From: Halioglobus sp.
GTDB lineage: Bacteria; Pseudomonadota; Gammaproteobacteria; Pseudomonadales; Halieaceae
Assembly (NCBI GenBank): GCA_002699145.1
Contig: PABK01000049.1
Coordinates: 1-47,031, forward strand
DNA length: 47,031 bases
Direction of reading: 5' to 3'
Shown: piece after piece, positions 39,645 through 46,777 of the stretch
Layout of the letters: the number at the start of each line of letters is the position of its first letter
Position numbering within the stretch: the stretch's first letter is position 1
Made by a program: the position numbers and the translations under genes
The notes under the pieces: model-generated
Told to the model about the DNA's origin: nothing
The model's input: only the letters and a program-made list of their open reading frames with translations
Database searches by the model: none

Positions 39645-39908
39645 ATGCAAACGATGCGCGACAAACTGGCGCTGGAACGCACCAGGCTCGCCAATGAACG
39701 CACCTTCCTCGCCTACGTGCGCACCTCCCTGTCGCTGATTGCCGGGGCGGCGGTGCTGTTCCAGTTTTTTTCCGCGATACAGGCTTACGTGGCGATCGCC
39801 TGGGCGTTGTCAGTGGCCGGCGTGGTCGTGCTCGCCGTCGGCGCCTGGCGCTTCCGCACGGTGCGCTCCGCACTGCGCCGCGAGGTGGCGAGCGGCGATG
39901 GCGGCTAG
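39645..39908 (+). CDS. DUF202 (YidH-like) small membrane protein
   Basis: 87 residues from the ATG giving MQTMRDKLALERTRLANERTFLAYVRTSLSLIAGA, the DUF202 signature. Two membrane segments follow (SLSLIAGAAVLFQFF and VAIAWALSVAGVVVLAVGAW). Function unknown. It overlaps the beta-helix gene by 11 bases. Confidence 0.85.
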   Translation: MQTMRDKLALERTRLANERTFLAYVRTSLSLIAGAAVLFQFFSAIQAYVAIAWALSVAGVVVLAVGAWRFRTVRSALRREVASGDGG

Positions 39909-41058
39909 GCGGCGCCGCTCGCGGGGTCGGCGCGCGCTATTCCCCGCCCTGCTGTGCTGGGCGCTGTCATCGCCGGCCGGCGCCGGCGCCCTGCTGCAGG
40001 TCGGCCCGGGAAAACCCTACCAGACGCCCAGCCACGCCGCGCAACACGCCCGCGATGGCGACACCATCGAGATCGACGCCGGCACCTACCACAACGACTT
40101 CACCCACTGGCGGCAGGACAACCTGACCATCCGCGGCGTCGGTGGCATGGCGCACCTGCACGGCGACACGCTGATCCACAACGGCAAGGGCATCTGGGTG
40201 ATCGACGGCGACAACACGCTGATCGAGAACGTGGAGTTTTCCGGCGCGCGGGTGCGCAGCACCAACGGCGCGGGCATCCGCCACCAGGGCGGCGACCTGA
40301 CCCTGCGCAACACGTTCTTCCACGACAACGAGTTTTCCATCCTCAGCGGGGTCAACCACCAGGCCCGTATCGCGGTGTACGATTCACGCTTCTGGCGCCA
40401 GAAGCGCAGCGTGCGCTGGAGCCATGGTATCTACATCGGGGCGGCGGGGAGCTTCACACTGGTGGGCAGCCACTTCACCGGCACCGACCAGGGGCACCAG
40501 GTGAAAAGTCGCGCGCTGCAAAACCGCATCCTGTACAACCGCATCGAGGACACGCCCCGCGGCAATTCCAGCCGGCTCATCGACCTGCCCAACTGCGGGC
40601 GCAGTGTCATCGTCGGCAATGACCTGCACCAGGCGGCGACCTCGCTGAACTACAACGCCATCGGTTACGGCATGGAGGGCTGCGAGGGGCGCAGCGCGCG
40701 ACAGCGGCAGCTGTATGTGGCGCACAACACCTTCGTCAACGAGGCCCTGGCCGGCACGCTGGTCAGCACCACCGGCAATGGAACCGCCCTGCTCGCCAAC
40801 AACCTGCTCTACGGGCGCGGGGTATTTCTCTCCGGCGAGGGCAGCGAACAGGGCAACCTGCGCCTGCCACTGTCGCAGCGCGCGGCGGACGGCTGGACAC
40901 CGCGTGCGGACAGCGCCGCGATCGACGCCGCCACGGCGCTGCCCCCGGCCGCGCCTGCCCTGGCGCCGCAGCAGATGTTCCGGCCGCCGCTGGGCACCAT
41001 GCCGCGCCCGGCCGATGGCGCGGCGGATATCGGCTCGCGCGAGGCGCCGTCCCGCTGA
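39898..41058 (+). CDS. Secreted right-handed beta-helix repeat protein
   Basis: 386 residues from the ATG inside the end of the DUF202 gene. The N-terminus is a basic signal peptide (RRALFPALLCWALSSPAGAGA). The body repeats beta-helix coils such as NLTIRGVGGMAHLHGD, TLIENVEFSGARVRSTNGAGIRHQ and RNTFFHDNEFSILSGV, as in pectate-lyase-like proteins. The TPSHAAQHARDGDTIEIDAGTYHND opening is typical of exported parallel beta-helix proteins. It may bind or cleave an acidic polysaccharide; no catalytic signature is clear. Confidence 0.82.
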   Translation: MAARRRRSRGRRALFPALLCWALSSPAGAGALLQVGPGKPYQTPSHAAQHARDGDTIEIDAGTYHNDFTHWRQDNLTIRGVGGMAHLHGDTLIHNGKGIWVIDGDNTLIENVEFSGARVRSTNGAGIRHQGGDLTLRNTFFHDNEFSILSGVNHQARIAVYDSRFWRQKRSVRWSHGIYIGAAGSFTLVGSHFTGTDQGHQVKSRALQNRILYNRIEDTPRGNSSRLIDLPNCGRSVIVGNDLHQAATSLNYNAIGYGMEGCEGRSARQRQLYVAHNTFVNEALAGTLVSTTGNGTALLANNLLYGRGVFLSGEGSEQGNLRLPLSQRAADGWTPRADSAAIDAATALPPAAPALAPQQMFRPPLGTMPRPADGAADIGSREAPSR

Positions 41059-41065
41059 GACCAGG

Positions 41066-41962
41066 TCAGGCCCGCGCCAGCGTCCCGTGGCACTGCAGGT
41101 CGTCGTCCACGGCCAGCCACGGCAGGCCCAGGGCGTCCAGCCAGGCGATCCCCTGCGCTCCCTTGAGCAGTGCCACCGTCGCGGCGCTGCCCGCCACCAT
41201 GCACTGCGGGGCGAGCACACTCACCGCGACCAGCCCGCGCACCGGCCAGCCGCTGCGCGGGTCCAGCACATGGCCGTAACGCCTGCCGTCGACGGTGATG
41301 CAACGCTCGTAATCGCCGCTGCTGGCCAGCGCCCCCGGCGGCAGCTCCAGCGCCGCGATGGCCTGCTGGCGCTGTGCCGGGTGACGAATGCCCACGGGCC
41401 AGCCGGGACGATCCGCCGGTGTGCCCACGGCCACCATGTCGCCGGCCAGGTCCACCAGCGCCGCGGCGACGCCGGCGTCGCGCAACTGCGCGGCCGCCGC
41501 ATCCGCGGCGTACTCCTTGACCACGCCACCCAGGTCGATTTCCATGCCGGGCCGCGCCAGGCGCACCGTCTGCGCATCCCGCTCCACCGCCTGCCAGTCC
41601 ACCAGCGGCAGCAGCGCGTCGATGTCGGCCTGCGCGGGCAGGCGGTCGGCGCTGAAATCCCAGGCGCGGCGCAGTACGCCGGAGGTGAGGTCGAACAACC
41701 CGTCGCTCTCGCGCCACACGGTGTCGGCGTAATCGAGCAGGCCGGCGGTCTCGGCGTCGATAGAGACCGGATCCGCGCCGGCGGCGCGGTTGATGCGCGT
41801 GGTGACCGAGTCCTCGAGGTAGCGACTGTACTTGCGCTCCAGCCGCCCCACTTCCGCCAGCGCCGCCGCGATGGCGGCATCGGCCTGCGCCCGGCCGGTC
41901 ACTTCCAGCCGCAACCGGCCGGGACCGCCCATGGCCCTGAAGTCGTGGTCAACGCGCAGCAT
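41066..41962 (-). CDS. apbE: ApbE, FAD:protein FMN transferase
   Basis: 298 residues. Family motifs are RKYSRYLEDSVTTRINRAAG, DLTSGVLRRAWDF, EIDLGGVVKEYAADAAA, LVDLAGDMVAVG and RYGHVLDPRSGWPV, with metal-binding Asp and Thr regions present. ApbE attaches FMN through a phosphodiester bond to Ser/Thr in exported proteins (motif S/T-G-A-S/T). No signal peptide is obvious from this start. It is the last gene of the five-gene redox operon, 38 bases after the DUF3570 gene, whose product carries two SGAS motifs and is the best candidate substrate. Confidence 0.93.
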   Translation of the reverse strand: MLRVDHDFRAMGGPGRLRLEVTGRAQADAAIAAALAEVGRLERKYSRYLEDSVTTRINRAAGADPVSIDAETAGLLDYADTVWRESDGLFDLTSGVLRRAWDFSADRLPAQADIDALLPLVDWQAVERDAQTVRLARPGMEIDLGGVVKEYAADAAAAQLRDAGVAAALVDLAGDMVAVGTPADRPGWPVGIRHPAQRQQAIAALELPPGALASSGDYERCITVDGRRYGHVLDPRSGWPVRGLVAVSVLAPQCMVAGSAATVALLKGAQGIAWLDALGLPWLAVDDDLQCHGTLARA

Positions 41963-42000: not shown

Positions 42001-43167
42001 TTACCTGAAAACGTAGTCGACCCCAAGGCTGTAACGCCAGTAGTCCACCAGCCCCGGCGCCTCGTCACCACTGTACAGCCCCCAGCTCTCATCCGACTTG
42101 TAGCGCTCGCCGGCGAGGTTAAGCGACCAGTTGCCCAGCTCGCGGCGCAGGCGCAGGCCGTAGGTGAACGCGCCGAAAGCCGACAGGCGGTAATCGTCGG
42201 CGTAGTAGCGCTGGCTGGTGTCGGCCACGACGTCGAAGAACTCCGCCTCGTCCTGGCTGTAATAACGCAGGAAGGGGATCAGTTGCAGCTGGTCGTTCAC
42301 GTTCTGGTGCCAGGACAGGTCCAGGGTGTGCGAGACCACGTCCCAGTCGTCGTCGAAATAACGGTAGTCGACGTGCAGCGCCGCGTCCTGCTGCTGGAAA
42401 AAATGCCGGTAGCCGGCGCTGGCCGTCCACTCCTTGCGCTCGTCCGGGCGGCTGTCGCGGTTCTTGTACGGGTCGGTGAGAAAACCGTCGCGGTAGGTGT
42501 AGCTGAGGCCGAAGCGCACGATGGCGCGCTTGCTGACGATCTGGCTGACGCCGATCCAGGCCGAGCGGATGTCCTTGTCGTCCTGCAGGGTGTTGGTGGG
42601 CACCGCGCCCTGGGTGGGCTCGATGTCGTCCCAGGAGGCGCTGATGGCGGCGGCGTAGGTGCGCATGCCGTCGGCGCTGTTGAACGCGCCGTCCAGCGAC
42701 ACCGCGTCGGACTGGTAGTCGTCCTCGTCGGAGTTGGTGTAGCTCAGGCCGGCGTTGCCGCGGTCGTAGTAGTAGCGCGTGTTGACGCTGACCTCGGTGC
42801 GCGTGTCCTCGATACTGGCGCCGCTCATGATGACCCTGGGGTCGCCGTCGGCGCTCTCGCCGACGAACCAGGGCGAGGCGCCGCTCATGTCTTCCCAGGC
42901 CACGTCCAGGGCGACCGACCAGCTGTCCGCCACCGGGGCGAGCAGGTGGAACTGGGCGACATCGATGTCATAGCGTTCGCTGCCGCTACCGAAACTCTTG
43001 CGGCCGGGAATGTCGTCTTCCTTGTACTTGCTGTAGCGCAGGCCAAGTTCGGTGTACTCGGGCGGCGCGTCCGCCTGGGCGCCCTGGTAGGCGGGCAGCA
43101 GCATGGCGCTGGAGGTCAGCGCCAGCAGGGTGGTGTGGCGCTCGCCGTTGCCGTTGCGCGCGCTCAT
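42001..43167 (-). CDS. DUF3570 outer-membrane protein with two SGAS motifs
   Basis: 388 residues. The ATG at 43167 overlaps the DUF4266 stop as TGATG. A signal segment (TLLALTSSAMLLPAYQGAQA) is followed by alternating amphipathic strands rich in Tyr and Trp, ending in Phe-Arg (LGVDYVFR), as in an outer-membrane barrel. It matches DUF3570 by features: PEYTELGLRYSKYKEDD, then repeated strands. Residues 95-98 and 115-118 both read SGAS, each after Met, exactly 20 residues apart; this is the core pattern of ApbE flavinylation sites. The upstream acidic residue of that pattern is partly present at the first site (EDM) only. Function unknown; a flavin-bearing surface protein is inferred. Confidence 0.85.
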   Translation of the reverse strand: MSARNGNGERHTTLLALTSSAMLLPAYQGAQADAPPEYTELGLRYSKYKEDDIPGRKSFGSGSERYDIDVAQFHLLAPVADSWSVALDVAWEDMSGASPWFVGESADGDPRVIMSGASIEDTRTEVSVNTRYYYDRGNAGLSYTNSDEDDYQSDAVSLDGAFNSADGMRTYAAAISASWDDIEPTQGAVPTNTLQDDKDIRSAWIGVSQIVSKRAIVRFGLSYTYRDGFLTDPYKNRDSRPDERKEWTASAGYRHFFQQQDAALHVDYRYFDDDWDVVSHTLDLSWHQNVNDQLQLIPFLRYYSQDEAEFFDVVADTSQRYYADDYRLSAFGAFTYGLRLRRELGNWSLNLAGERYKSDESWGLYSGDEAPGLVDYWRYSLGVDYVFR

Positions 43168-43373
43168 CAGTTGCACCCGCAGCCGCCGCCGGCGGCCCCG
43201 CTACCGCCGGACGAGGCTTCCTTGCTCGCATGAATCTGGTTCTGCAGCACGCCCTCCATGGTGTCCGGCTGCCACTGCATCTCCGGTTTGGCGAGCAGGC
43301 CGCGCTCCCAGGGCTGCACGGTCGTGCAGCCACACAGGGCGGCCAGAAGACAACAGGCGCTCAGGTATTTCAA
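43167..43373 (-). CDS. DUF4266 lipoprotein with Gly/Cys C-terminal tail
   Basis: 68 residues starting at TTG, with GGAGAA about seven bases upstream and only three bases from tlpA. Lipoprotein signal with ALCGC lipobox, then VQPWERGLLAKPEMQW, the DUF4266 core. The end is Ser/Gly/Ala-rich and closes GGGCGCN, with Cys at residues 65 and 67. DUF4266 genes commonly neighbour DUF3570 and ApbE genes. The terminal Cys pair may bind metal or be a modification or thiol-exchange site; the adjacent TlpA fits the latter. Function unknown. Confidence 0.85.
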   Translation of the reverse strand: MKYLSACCLLAALCGCTTVQPWERGLLAKPEMQWQPDTMEGVLQNQIHASKEASSGGSGAAGGGCGCN

Positions 43374-43376
43374 GGC

Positions 43377-43871
43377 TTATTCTCCCAACAGGTTGATGAC
43401 CGAGGCGCGCAGTTTCTCACCGTCACTCTTCTTGTAGCCCTCGTGCACGTGGCGCACGATGCCCTGGCGGTCAACCAGGTAACCGGTGGGCATGCCCAGG
43501 ATGCCGTACTGCTGCGGGCTCACTCCCGCCGGGTCGTGCACGACCAGGTAGCTCACCGGCACCTCCTGCAGGAACGCCAGTGCGTCCGCCGCGTCCTCGT
43601 CCACGCTGATCGCCAGCACCTCGAAGCCGCGCGGGCCCAGTTCGCGGCGCAGCGCATCCAGTTGCGGGAACGAAACGCGGCAGGGACCGCACCAGGAGGC
43701 CCAGAAATCCACGTAGACCACCTTGCCGCGCAGGGAGGCGAGCGTGACCTGGGCGCCGCCGTGTAGCGACGGCAACGCCACCGCGGGCGCCGGCTGGCCG
43801 ACACTCGCAGCGGCCGTGGCGAACGCCGGCAACAGGCACAGCAGCAGCGCGATGGCGAGACGGCGCGACAC
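43377..43871 (-). CDS. TlpA-family thioredoxin-like disulfide reductase
   Basis: 164 residues from GTG, with a signal peptide (RLAIALLLCLLPAFATA). Redoxin fold: VYVDFWASWCGPCRVSFPQLDAL carries the CxxC active site, and GILGMPTGYLVDRQG the cis-Pro loop. It should keep cysteines of exported proteins reduced, for example CxxCH haem sites before haem attachment, or metal-site cysteines. It lies three bases after the copper-monooxygenase gene and three before DUF4266, so all three must be co-transcribed. Confidence 0.93.
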   Translation of the reverse strand: MSRRLAIALLLCLLPAFATAAASVGQPAPAVALPSLHGGAQVTLASLRGKVVYVDFWASWCGPCRVSFPQLDALRRELGPRGFEVLAISVDEDAADALAFLQEVPVSYLVVHDPAGVSPQQYGILGMPTGYLVDRQGIVRHVHEGYKKSDGEKLRASVINLLGE

Positions 43872-43874
43872 GGC

Positions 43875-46373
43875 TCAGCGCTCGACCGCCAGGTCCAGCA
43901 GGGTCCAGGTGTTGTAGCCGTGGTTGTGGAGGTGGTACTCGATCTTGCTGCCGGCCGGCGCGCTGACATTCACCGGTACACGCACGTCGAAGATCTCGGC
44001 GTCGGCCGGGATCGCCACGTCGCGCTGCCAGACGATATTGCCGTCAATGCTGATCGCCACGTGGGCGCTGGCCGGCTGCGGGAAGGCCAGGTTGCCGTGC
44101 CACAGCACCAGGTGCAGGGTGTCGCCGCTGTCGATGTCGGCGAGGCTGGGCTGCGCCACGGACAGGTAGTTGCAAAAGCCCGTCTCGACCTCCAGCGCGC
44201 CGTCCTCGTTGTACCAGCTGTTGTCCGGGCACTCGACCGTGGCCGGGCGGTGCGCCGCCAGGCTGTCCTGCGCCGCGGACTGGAAGGTCCAGGCGTTGAC
44301 GTCGATAAGCGACTCGACCTGCGCGGGGTCGCCCTGCACCACCTCGATGGTCACCTCATCCTCCACGCCCAGCGCGTGGTGGTCGTCGCCGCGCAGGCTC
44401 ACCCGCAGGGTGTGCAGCCCCGGTTCGATATCCTCGGGCAGCTGGTAATAGTAGCCGGCGTCCCAGGCGGTGAGATGTTCCGCGTTGTCGTCGTCGGTGT
44501 CCAGGTAGACGTGGTAGTGACCGACATGGACCGCCGAGTGGTCCCCTCCGTGCATGTCCTCGCCGTGGTCCATGGCGTGGTCGTGGCCGCCGTGGGAACC
44601 CGGTTCGGCAAGGCTGAAGTTGTTGAACAGGAACTTCAGCGGCACCAGGTCACCGGCGCGGAAGGCCTGGCGATACCCGGGCTCCTCGATATGCACACTG
44701 GCCTTGTAGCTGTAATGATGACCGGGCTTGGGCCTGGTCATATAGATATTCATCAGGCACATCTCGTCGCCCGTGCCATCGCCCCACTCCACATCACGCG
44801 CGGGCTTCTGCACGCCGTTGATGATGACCTGGTTGGCGTCGGTGTTGTCCCAGGTGCACTCCAGGCGAATGCGGTCGTCGGGGTTTACCAGCAGTTCCTG
44901 CTCGAGGCGGTAGGTGCTCTGCCAGTTGAAGTCCCAGTCGCGGATATCCAGGATCACCTGCTCCGTGCCGTCGGCGCGAATCAGCGTGGTGCGCCCGGTG
45001 GTGGCCAGGTAGTGCATGTGCAGGAAGCCGTTGTGAATCACCCAGGGCTCCCCGGGCGCCACCTGCGCCGCGTCGCCGAACAGCGTGGCGAGCACGCCGG
45101 CGGGCACCTCGAAGGAATGGTGCACGTTGGGGTCGCCAGCGGGGATCGGCATGCCGCCAGAGCGCAGCCAGCCCGGGTTGGTGAAGAGGAAGCCGTTGGC
45201 CGGCCGTTCCACCTCGTCGGTGGTGGCGATCAACACGGTGGACTGGTCCGGTGTGGGCTCCGCGACCAGGGTGTTGTAGTGCATCTGCACCACGATCAGG
45301 GAGCCCGGCTCAACCGCCATGCCCGTACCCTCGGGCACGGCGCCGGCGGGGCTGCCCGGTACCCAGCCGCCCAGTTGCCTGGGCAGCGGCGTGCCCGGCA
45401 GGCCGCCGGAAAGCAGGCAGGGCCAGCCCGGGTTGCCGTCCTGGCCGCTGGCGGCGCGGTAGGTGCCGGCCCAGGCCGGCTCGACCACGTTGACGATGAC
45501 GTGGTGCACCTCGGCCACCTGGTCGGGGATCACGTCGACCGCGGTGACGTAGGTCAGCTCGTCGTAGGGCCACTCGATGGCGAAACAGCGATGGTCATCC
45601 GGGCGCAGCGTGGGGGTATAGGGCTGCGGCAGGGGCATGCGCAGGTCGTAGTCGATCGCGTCCGGCTCGGGCATCTGCGGCGGCTCGTAGTCCTGCGGGT
45701 TGCCCTCGGGCAGGTTGCCGCTGTTGAGCCAGTTGAGCAGCGCGAACTCCTCCTGCGGCTCCAGCACGCGCTCGTGGGTGAAGCGGCTGAACCCCGGTGT
45801 GGGTGGCCAGGGCGGCATGTCACCGCTGTCCACCGCGAAAGCCGCCGCCGCGGCGACCGCTTTCACCTTGTCGTAGCTGTCCAGGGGGAAGGGGGCGACG
45901 CCGCCGTCCACGTGACAGGTGACGCAGTACTTCTCGAGGATGGCGCGCGCATCGCCGTGGTAGGTGTAGCCGCCCGACACCGACGGCAGCGGAGCCTGGG
46001 ACGGGTCCCCCTTGGGCGCGCCGGCGGCGAGCCACTGCGCGAGGATGTCCGCCTCCGCGGTGCCCAGGTCGGCGAAACCCAATGGCGGCATGGTATCCGC
46101 CTCCAGCACGTAGGTCATCGCGGACAGTTTGTTGTACACCTGCTGGTAGGTCTCCAGCGGGAAAGGCGCCAGCGGGCTGTCCTGGGTGTGGCAGGAAGTG
46201 CAGTAGCGCTGCACCAGCGGCTGCGCCGCGCTGTACCAGGAAATCTCCGGCGGCCCCGCGTCCTGTACGCTGACACTCGCGTCATAGCTGGATGAGGAAC
46301 CGCCACCGCCACACCCGGACACGGCGACCATCGCGGCCAGCACGGCGGGCTTTACACTGTTTTTTATATTCAT
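43875..46373 (-). CDS. Dihaem cytochrome / copper type II monooxygenase fusion lipoprotein
   Basis: 832 residues from the ATG giving MNIKNSVKPAVLAAMVAVSGC, a lipoprotein signal (Cys21). Two c-type haem sites follow: CTSCH (58-62) with MPP Met95, and CVTCH (150-154) with MPP Met186. Residues about 240-545 form a peptidylglycine/dopamine-beta monooxygenase-like module. CuA ligands are HH 290-291 and His365 (MHYN); CuB ligands are His452 and His454 (HMH) and Met538 (DEMC), all six present. Then comes a His/Asp/Met-rich stretch (GHDHAMDHGEDMHGGDH) and a C-terminal beta-sandwich. The haems may replace ascorbate as electron source. Substrate unknown. It is the first gene of the five-gene operon. 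Confidence 0.88.
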   Translation of the reverse strand: MNIKNSVKPAVLAAMVAVSGCGGGGSSSSYDASVSVQDAGPPEISWYSAAQPLVQRYCTSCHTQDSPLAPFPLETYQQVYNKLSAMTYVLEADTMPPLGFADLGTAEADILAQWLAAGAPKGDPSQAPLPSVSGGYTYHGDARAILEKYCVTCHVDGGVAPFPLDSYDKVKAVAAAAAFAVDSGDMPPWPPTPGFSRFTHERVLEPQEEFALLNWLNSGNLPEGNPQDYEPPQMPEPDAIDYDLRMPLPQPYTPTLRPDDHRCFAIEWPYDELTYVTAVDVIPDQVAEVHHVIVNVVEPAWAGTYRAASGQDGNPGWPCLLSGGLPGTPLPRQLGGWVPGSPAGAVPEGTGMAVEPGSLIVVQMHYNTLVAEPTPDQSTVLIATTDEVERPANGFLFTNPGWLRSGGMPIPAGDPNVHHSFEVPAGVLATLFGDAAQVAPGEPWVIHNGFLHMHYLATTGRTTLIRADGTEQVILDIRDWDFNWQSTYRLEQELLVNPDDRIRLECTWDNTDANQVIINGVQKPARDVEWGDGTGDEMCLMNIYMTRPKPGHHYSYKASVHIEEPGYRQAFRAGDLVPLKFLFNNFSLAEPGSHGGHDHAMDHGEDMHGGDHSAVHVGHYHVYLDTDDDNAEHLTAWDAGYYYQLPEDIEPGLHTLRVSLRGDDHHALGVEDEVTIEVVQGDPAQVESLIDVNAWTFQSAAQDSLAAHRPATVECPDNSWYNEDGALEVETGFCNYLSVAQPSLADIDSGDTLHLVLWHGNLAFPQPASAHVAISIDGNIVWQRDVAIPADAEIFDVRVPVNVSAPAGSKIEYHLHNHGYNTWTLLDLAVER

Positions 46374-46447: not shown

Positions 46448-46777
46448 TTACCGGGCCCCGCCCGTCAGCAGCGTATCGATACGCAGCAGCGCGTCCAGCA
46501 GGTCGTCGTGGGGCAACTCGGTGCCGCGGAAATACTCCTCGGCCATGGGGGCAATGCCGCAGCGCCCGGGCAACTCGCCGCCCTCCTCCAGTATCTGGTA
46601 AAGCGTGGGCAGGAAGATGAACTGCAGCCACTGCGGCAGGGTGAGGGTGTCGACACAGAACGGCTGGCTGGACGCCAGGGCCTCACGGGACGGCGGCAGC
46701 CTGTCCCACTGCCCGATCTGGCGCAACTGCGCCTCGATGTCGATGAGAATTTCCGCGACCTCGGTGTGCCTGCTCAA
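46448..46777 (-). CDS. YqcC-family (DUF446) protein
   Basis: 109 residues. It matches the all-helical YqcC family: RHTEVAEILIDIEAQLRQIGQW, then PFCVDTLTLPQWLQFIFLPTLYQILE and a C-terminal helix DDLLDALLRIDTLL. In many gammaproteobacteria it neighbours truC; that gene is not in the window. No known enzyme function. Confidence 0.88.
   Translation of the reverse strand: MSRHTEVAEILIDIEAQLRQIGQWDRLPPSREALASSQPFCVDTLTLPQWLQFIFLPTLYQILEEGGELPGRCGIAPMAEEYFRGTELPHDDLLDALLRIDTLLTGGAR

Follow-up and report, generated by a model that had tools for sequence, protein, structure and literature searches.

The 47,031-nucleotide stretch analysed here, called the window in the following, is contig PABK01000049.1 of a Halioglobus sp. 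genome (assembly GCA_002699145.1). Its minus strand carries a gene for a lipoprotein of 832 amino acids (43875..46373), which resembles a di-haem c / PHM-type copper monooxygenase and is referred to as the query. The open reading frame (ORF) starts with ATG at 46373 and stops at 43875-43877, exactly as claimed in a first-pass annotation of this DNA, and its translation begins with a signal peptide and a lipobox around Cys21 (VSGC-GG, cysteine codon at 46311..46313). Two haem domains follow (residues 44-126, 45996..46244, and residues 136-235, 45669..45968), then a PHM/DBH-type copper module (residues 241-551, 44721..45653), a His-rich Ig/FN3-like domain with GHYH and DHH motifs (residues 552-684, 44322..44720) and a C-terminal jelly-roll with a CBM-like fold (residues 685-832, 43878..44321). 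In an alignment of the query with eight full-length orthologues from congeneric genomes (45-72% identical to the query), Cys21, G22 and G23 are invariant, and so are all haem ligands, the six copper ligands and H612, H619, H621, H633, H654 and H665 of the His-rich domain. The additional His-rich and beta-sandwich domains are real. The former shows a weak likeness to DUF4399 below the cut-off and the latter was recognised by its fold; apart from Cu2_monoox_C and the cytochrome stretches, no Pfam family scores above its cut-off in the 832 residues.

Both haem domains have the features of c-type cytochromes, a CxxCH site and a conserved distal methionine, in the query and in all eight orthologues. 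The ligands are C58-C61-H62 with M95 (in MPP) and C150-C153-H154 with M186 (in MPPW), in agreement with the two sites proposed beforehand. Pfam reports two cytochrome stretches, the best being Cytochrome_CBB3 at residues 142-191 (E 2.9e-7). The domains match each other with 31% identity (E 4e-14; 28-43% across the nine rows), which shows a tandem duplication of the haem within the chain. Haem domain 2 is the one shared with the one-haem proteins described below.

The copper ligands lie where they had been predicted, H290-H291 (45501..45506) and H365 (45279..45281) as the CuH set, H452-M-H454 (45012..45020) and M538 (44760..44762) as the CuM set. For a wider comparison, GTDB contigs were scanned, and the best 80 of at least 466 relatives were kept and joined with the query in an 81-row family alignment. 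The profile of this alignment finds PHM with E 2.8e-19 and DBH with E 4.1e-13; as a single sequence, the query matches only DBH, at E 0.054. In the profile alignment the six ligands pair one to one with H107, H108, H172, H242, H244 and M314 of rat PHM (numbers counted in the alignment), which we take to be its copper ligands, and the module has the PHM double jelly-roll fold. Profile match, ligand pairing and fold together bear out the proposed PHM/DBM-like module with its full ligand set. The suggested search with the Cu2_monooxygen families gave a divided answer: Cu2_monoox_C (PF03712) was found at residues 450-543 (E 8.6e-8, 32.2 bits against a cut-off of 23), and Cu2_monooxygen (PF01082), the N-terminal half, was not reported for the query at E values up to 10. 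Several haem-fused relatives do match PF01082, yet below its cut-off of 30 bits, and in the query this half is covered by the profile alignment to PHM and by the fold.

The residues R240, N316 and Y318 of PHM, which presumably hold the peptide carboxylate, correspond to F450, L540 and N542 of the query, and all three columns vary across the 81 rows. Hydroxylation of peptides, considered in the first-pass annotation, is therefore unlikely, and we discarded peptide amidation as a probable role. Q485, the equivalent of PHM Q272, is invariant inside a WDFxWQ motif (81/81 rows). Since the carboxylate positions vary while Q485 is kept, we read the module as a putative copper type II (PHM/DBM-class) oxygenase core with a substrate other than that of PHM. 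Compared with PHM (PDB 1opm, 1sdw, 1yjk), the query thus has in common the double jelly-roll fold, the six copper ligands and the Q272 equivalent, and differs in its two in-chain c-type haems, the lipoprotein anchor and the extra His-rich and jelly-roll domains, apart from the carboxylate residues. Dopamine beta-hydroxylase (DBH, PDB 4zel) carries a DOMON domain ahead of the copper module, whereas the query has covalent c-type cytochromes instead.

The rows of the family alignment span Acidobacteriota, Planctomycetota, Armatimonadota, Myxococcota and Pseudomonadota. H452, H454, E537 and M538 occur in 81/81 rows, and the haem-2 CxxCH, M186, H290, H291 and H365 in 80/81; only L040 lacks them, its sequence beginning at the edge of a contig, and it retains H452, H454 and M538. 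The spacing from CxxCH to HH is 136-147 residues with a median of 140, as measurable in 79 of the 80 family ORFs. Because one of the two scan patterns sits in the haem domain, this sample is biased towards fused proteins. PF03712 alone was used as the less biased search profile. In 369 gammaproteobacterial genomes it found seven places in six genomes (the genome of the window accounts for two), and all seven have an in-frame CxxCH upstream. In 30 genomes reached via family loci, chosen because they already held a haem-copper gene, it found 76 places, of which 70 carry a haem, three are cut by contig ends and three show no haem (one of these, L116, is a clearly haem-less member that matches both Cu2 Pfam families; another, L119, is a short frame; in L181 no haem is visible). 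With haem at 7/7 and 70/76 places, the haem-copper fusion is the norm among the bacteria sampled and not a peculiarity of the query, which supports the idea that haem and copper domains belong together. Special here are the additional haem, the His-rich domain and a jelly-roll joined to the same chain.

The one-haem bacterial members, cytochrome c / Cu2_monoox_C proteins with or without an N-terminal redoxin (loci L041-L110), are homologous to the query throughout haem 2 and the copper module, and have a single haem in the aligned part versus two in the query. By tblastn, the His-rich domain occurs in none of these 70 loci and the jelly-roll in two, as a separate ORF. A thioredoxin-fold domain precedes the haem-copper unit above cut-off in six of ten long relatives scanned, and below cut-off in a seventh. 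Besides the query, the window's own genome encodes a further haem-copper protein (G000:C4:8962-9294; L024:6864-8666), which has one haem, begins with a redoxin domain and sits on another branch of the tree. A very close kinship of the query to this one-haem redoxin-fused paralogue (G000:C4:8980-10071) was rejected, as the two fall into different parts of the tree. One metagenome-assembled record titled Klebsiella pneumoniae (L047) contains a haem-copper gene whose place in the tree is among Myxococcota-type sequences; this label is probably wrong.

The jelly-roll also exists as a gene family of its own (L045:1771-2343, L041:7482-7907, L283-L342), of about 160-290 residues in most stretches and without a Pfam match in the five members scanned. 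In Myxococcota, these separate genes often adjoin haem-copper genes. A further arrangement is found in order-swapped siblings (L023:3049-5904, L027:7379-10303, L197:2617-5472, L198-L207), which carry haem 1, the jelly-roll, a CX4CH haem-like site and then HH/H/HxH/M copper motifs. The GHYH motif of the His-rich domain is present in 8 of 12 uncut siblings, and PF03712 gave no match in the two siblings scanned.

Downstream of the query gene and on the same strand lie a TlpA-type redoxin/thioredoxin with a CGPC motif (43377..43871, listed GTG start), three bases from the copper gene stop, a DUF4266 lipoprotein with a C-terminal CXC (43167..43373), a DUF3570 protein with one SGAS motif (42001..43176) and an ApbE FAD:protein FMN transferase (41066..41962). 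DUF3570 is a class of ApbE flavinylation substrates according to the main text of PMC8238504, and judged on these four genes together the cluster is of the DsbD-type flavinylation kind described there. The words "Cu2" and "monooxygenase" are absent from that main text, and only one clade has the copper gene added at the head of the cluster. This clade 1 comprises sequences at least 59% identical to the query, clade 2 those at 45-48%. Wherever a clade-1 locus extends downstream of the copper gene, TlpA, DUF4266, DUF3570 and ApbE follow it; these are nine distinct loci (window, L025, L028, L190, L191, L192, L032, L034, L040). L033 stops short of this region, and L031 and L035 are duplicates of L028 and L190. 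The description of the enzyme as self-contained was thus too strong with regard to this co-directional operon. Upstream, the query gene is flanked on the minus strand by a DUF446 gene (46448..46777). On the far side, a right-handed beta-helix protein (39739-41058; NosD below cut-off) is convergent with ApbE and has homologues beside the operon in L025 and L191.

Considering these observations, we regard the query as probably an exported lipoprotein copper monooxygenase of the PHM/DBM class, which would draw its electrons from in-chain c-type haem instead of ascorbate. The lipoprotein would be exported and probably anchored in the outer membrane. An envelope donor may reduce haem 1, in clade 1 plausibly the TlpA/DUF4266/DUF3570-FMN chain and otherwise a soluble cytochrome. 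Haem 2, which adjoins the copper module and is the ancestral one of the two, would take electrons from haem 1 and pass them on to CuH; they would then reach CuM, where O2 would be activated and a C-H bond of a non-peptidylglycine substrate hydroxylated. As for the C-terminal jelly-roll, whose counterpart in Myxococcota is encoded by a partner gene of its own, its role is probably to position the substrate or to dock the enzyme.

Several points weigh against this interpretation, namely the missing PF01082 match, the way in which the 30 genomes were chosen, a clearly haem-less PHM-like protein in Enhygromyxa (L116, 1495-2703; PF03712 E 3.3e-24, PF01082 E 1.8e-14), whose branch in the family tree is very long, and the distribution of the operon, which is absent at all five clade-2 loci with flanks (L026, L036, L193, L194, L195; L013 and L014 are too short to judge). 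The PHM fold might have been kept merely for copper binding or electron transfer, i.e., for acquisition, storage or delivery, so that the query would be a copper-handling redox lipoprotein. Its His-rich stretch with six invariant histidines would suit such a role, as would the lack of an identified substrate and of a PF01082 match. Against this stands the conservation of E537, M538, Q485 and WDFxWQ in every row and of the six ligands in 80/81, across five phyla; if the protein only handled copper, one would hardly expect the methionine site and WDFxWQ to be retained, and we consider this explanation unlikely. It is also quite improbable that the haems serve as an electron sink or as a sensor of O2 or peroxide, while the copper would receive its electrons from ascorbate or a different small reductant, as it does in animals. 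The PHM-like character of the copper module and the existence of L116 speak for this, but nearly all bacterial proteins sampled carry an in-frame haem, at near-constant spacing, and a dispensable sensor should have been lost more often.

A third alternative concerns the operon only and is compatible with a cytochrome-fed monooxygenase: TlpA, DUF4266, DUF3570 and ApbE may not be electron donors but serve redox or maturation tasks of the envelope in general, and be adjacent by chance. At each of 12 loci selected as lying apart from the copper gene, eight of them congeneric, the operon is present and the stretch lacks a copper gene (upstream DNA at L209 is limited to 466 bases). Five of these loci have DUF446 at a distance of 57-203 bases from TlpA, the very junction which the copper gene fills in the window, L025 and L191, and clade-2 orthologues are located elsewhere. 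An obligate partnership of the copper gene with the flavin operon was rejected on the grounds of these 12 loci. On the other hand, the head-of-operon position is conserved, several of the nine clade-1 loci have gaps that measure a few bases, and thioredoxin-fold domains are recurrently fused to haem-copper units in other lineages. We find chance adjacency a serious contender, only slightly short of an even chance, and a thiol/flavin electron feed to the copper enzyme plausible but not shown.

The fold and the haem domains of the query are of already known kinds. The animal relatives of its copper core finish peptide hormones and make noradrenaline, driven by ascorbate, and in PHM and DBH the electron path to CuH and then across to CuM has long been debated. 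Our data suggest that cytochromes, and not vitamin C, power the enzyme in bacteria. We tentatively propose, and hold it somewhat less likely than its opposite, that the PHM-class copper monooxygenases of bacteria are a branch of the superfamily driven by cytochromes, with c-type haem in the place of ascorbate and the jelly-roll lipoprotein as a dedicated partner; Halieaceae would have fused all three in two domain orders and duplicated the haem into a short wire, with one clade placed at the head of a flavinylated DUF3570 chain. If so, an in-chain haem donor would allow electron transfer to copper to be followed optically and stepwise, and ascorbate dependence, the source of the family name, would seem to be an animal trait rather than a defining one. 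It would also assign a first role to the haem-copper genes of Acidobacteriota, Planctomycetota and Myxococcota and to the jelly-roll partner family, possibly also to DUF3570 flavin chains.

Some neighbours recur beside haem-copper genes in other lineages. At eight Acidobacteriota loci (L059, L061, L062, L064, L066, L067, L070, L096) the haem-copper gene is directly followed on its strand by a gene of one and the same cluster, whose start lies at -156 to 8 bases relative to the haem-copper gene's end. The one member scanned (L067) proved to be a cytochrome P450 (E 2.9e-86), a hint of oxidative pathways in this phylum. A sulfatase-type gene cluster lies near the haem-copper gene at seven loci (L035, L061, L077, L079, L089, L097, L109), its L079 member matching Pfam Sulfatase. 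At three Acidobacteriota loci (L072, L081, L095), the next gene within 2-14 bases of the haem-copper gene's end is GlcNAc 2-epimerase-like; the L081 member was confirmed by Pfam.
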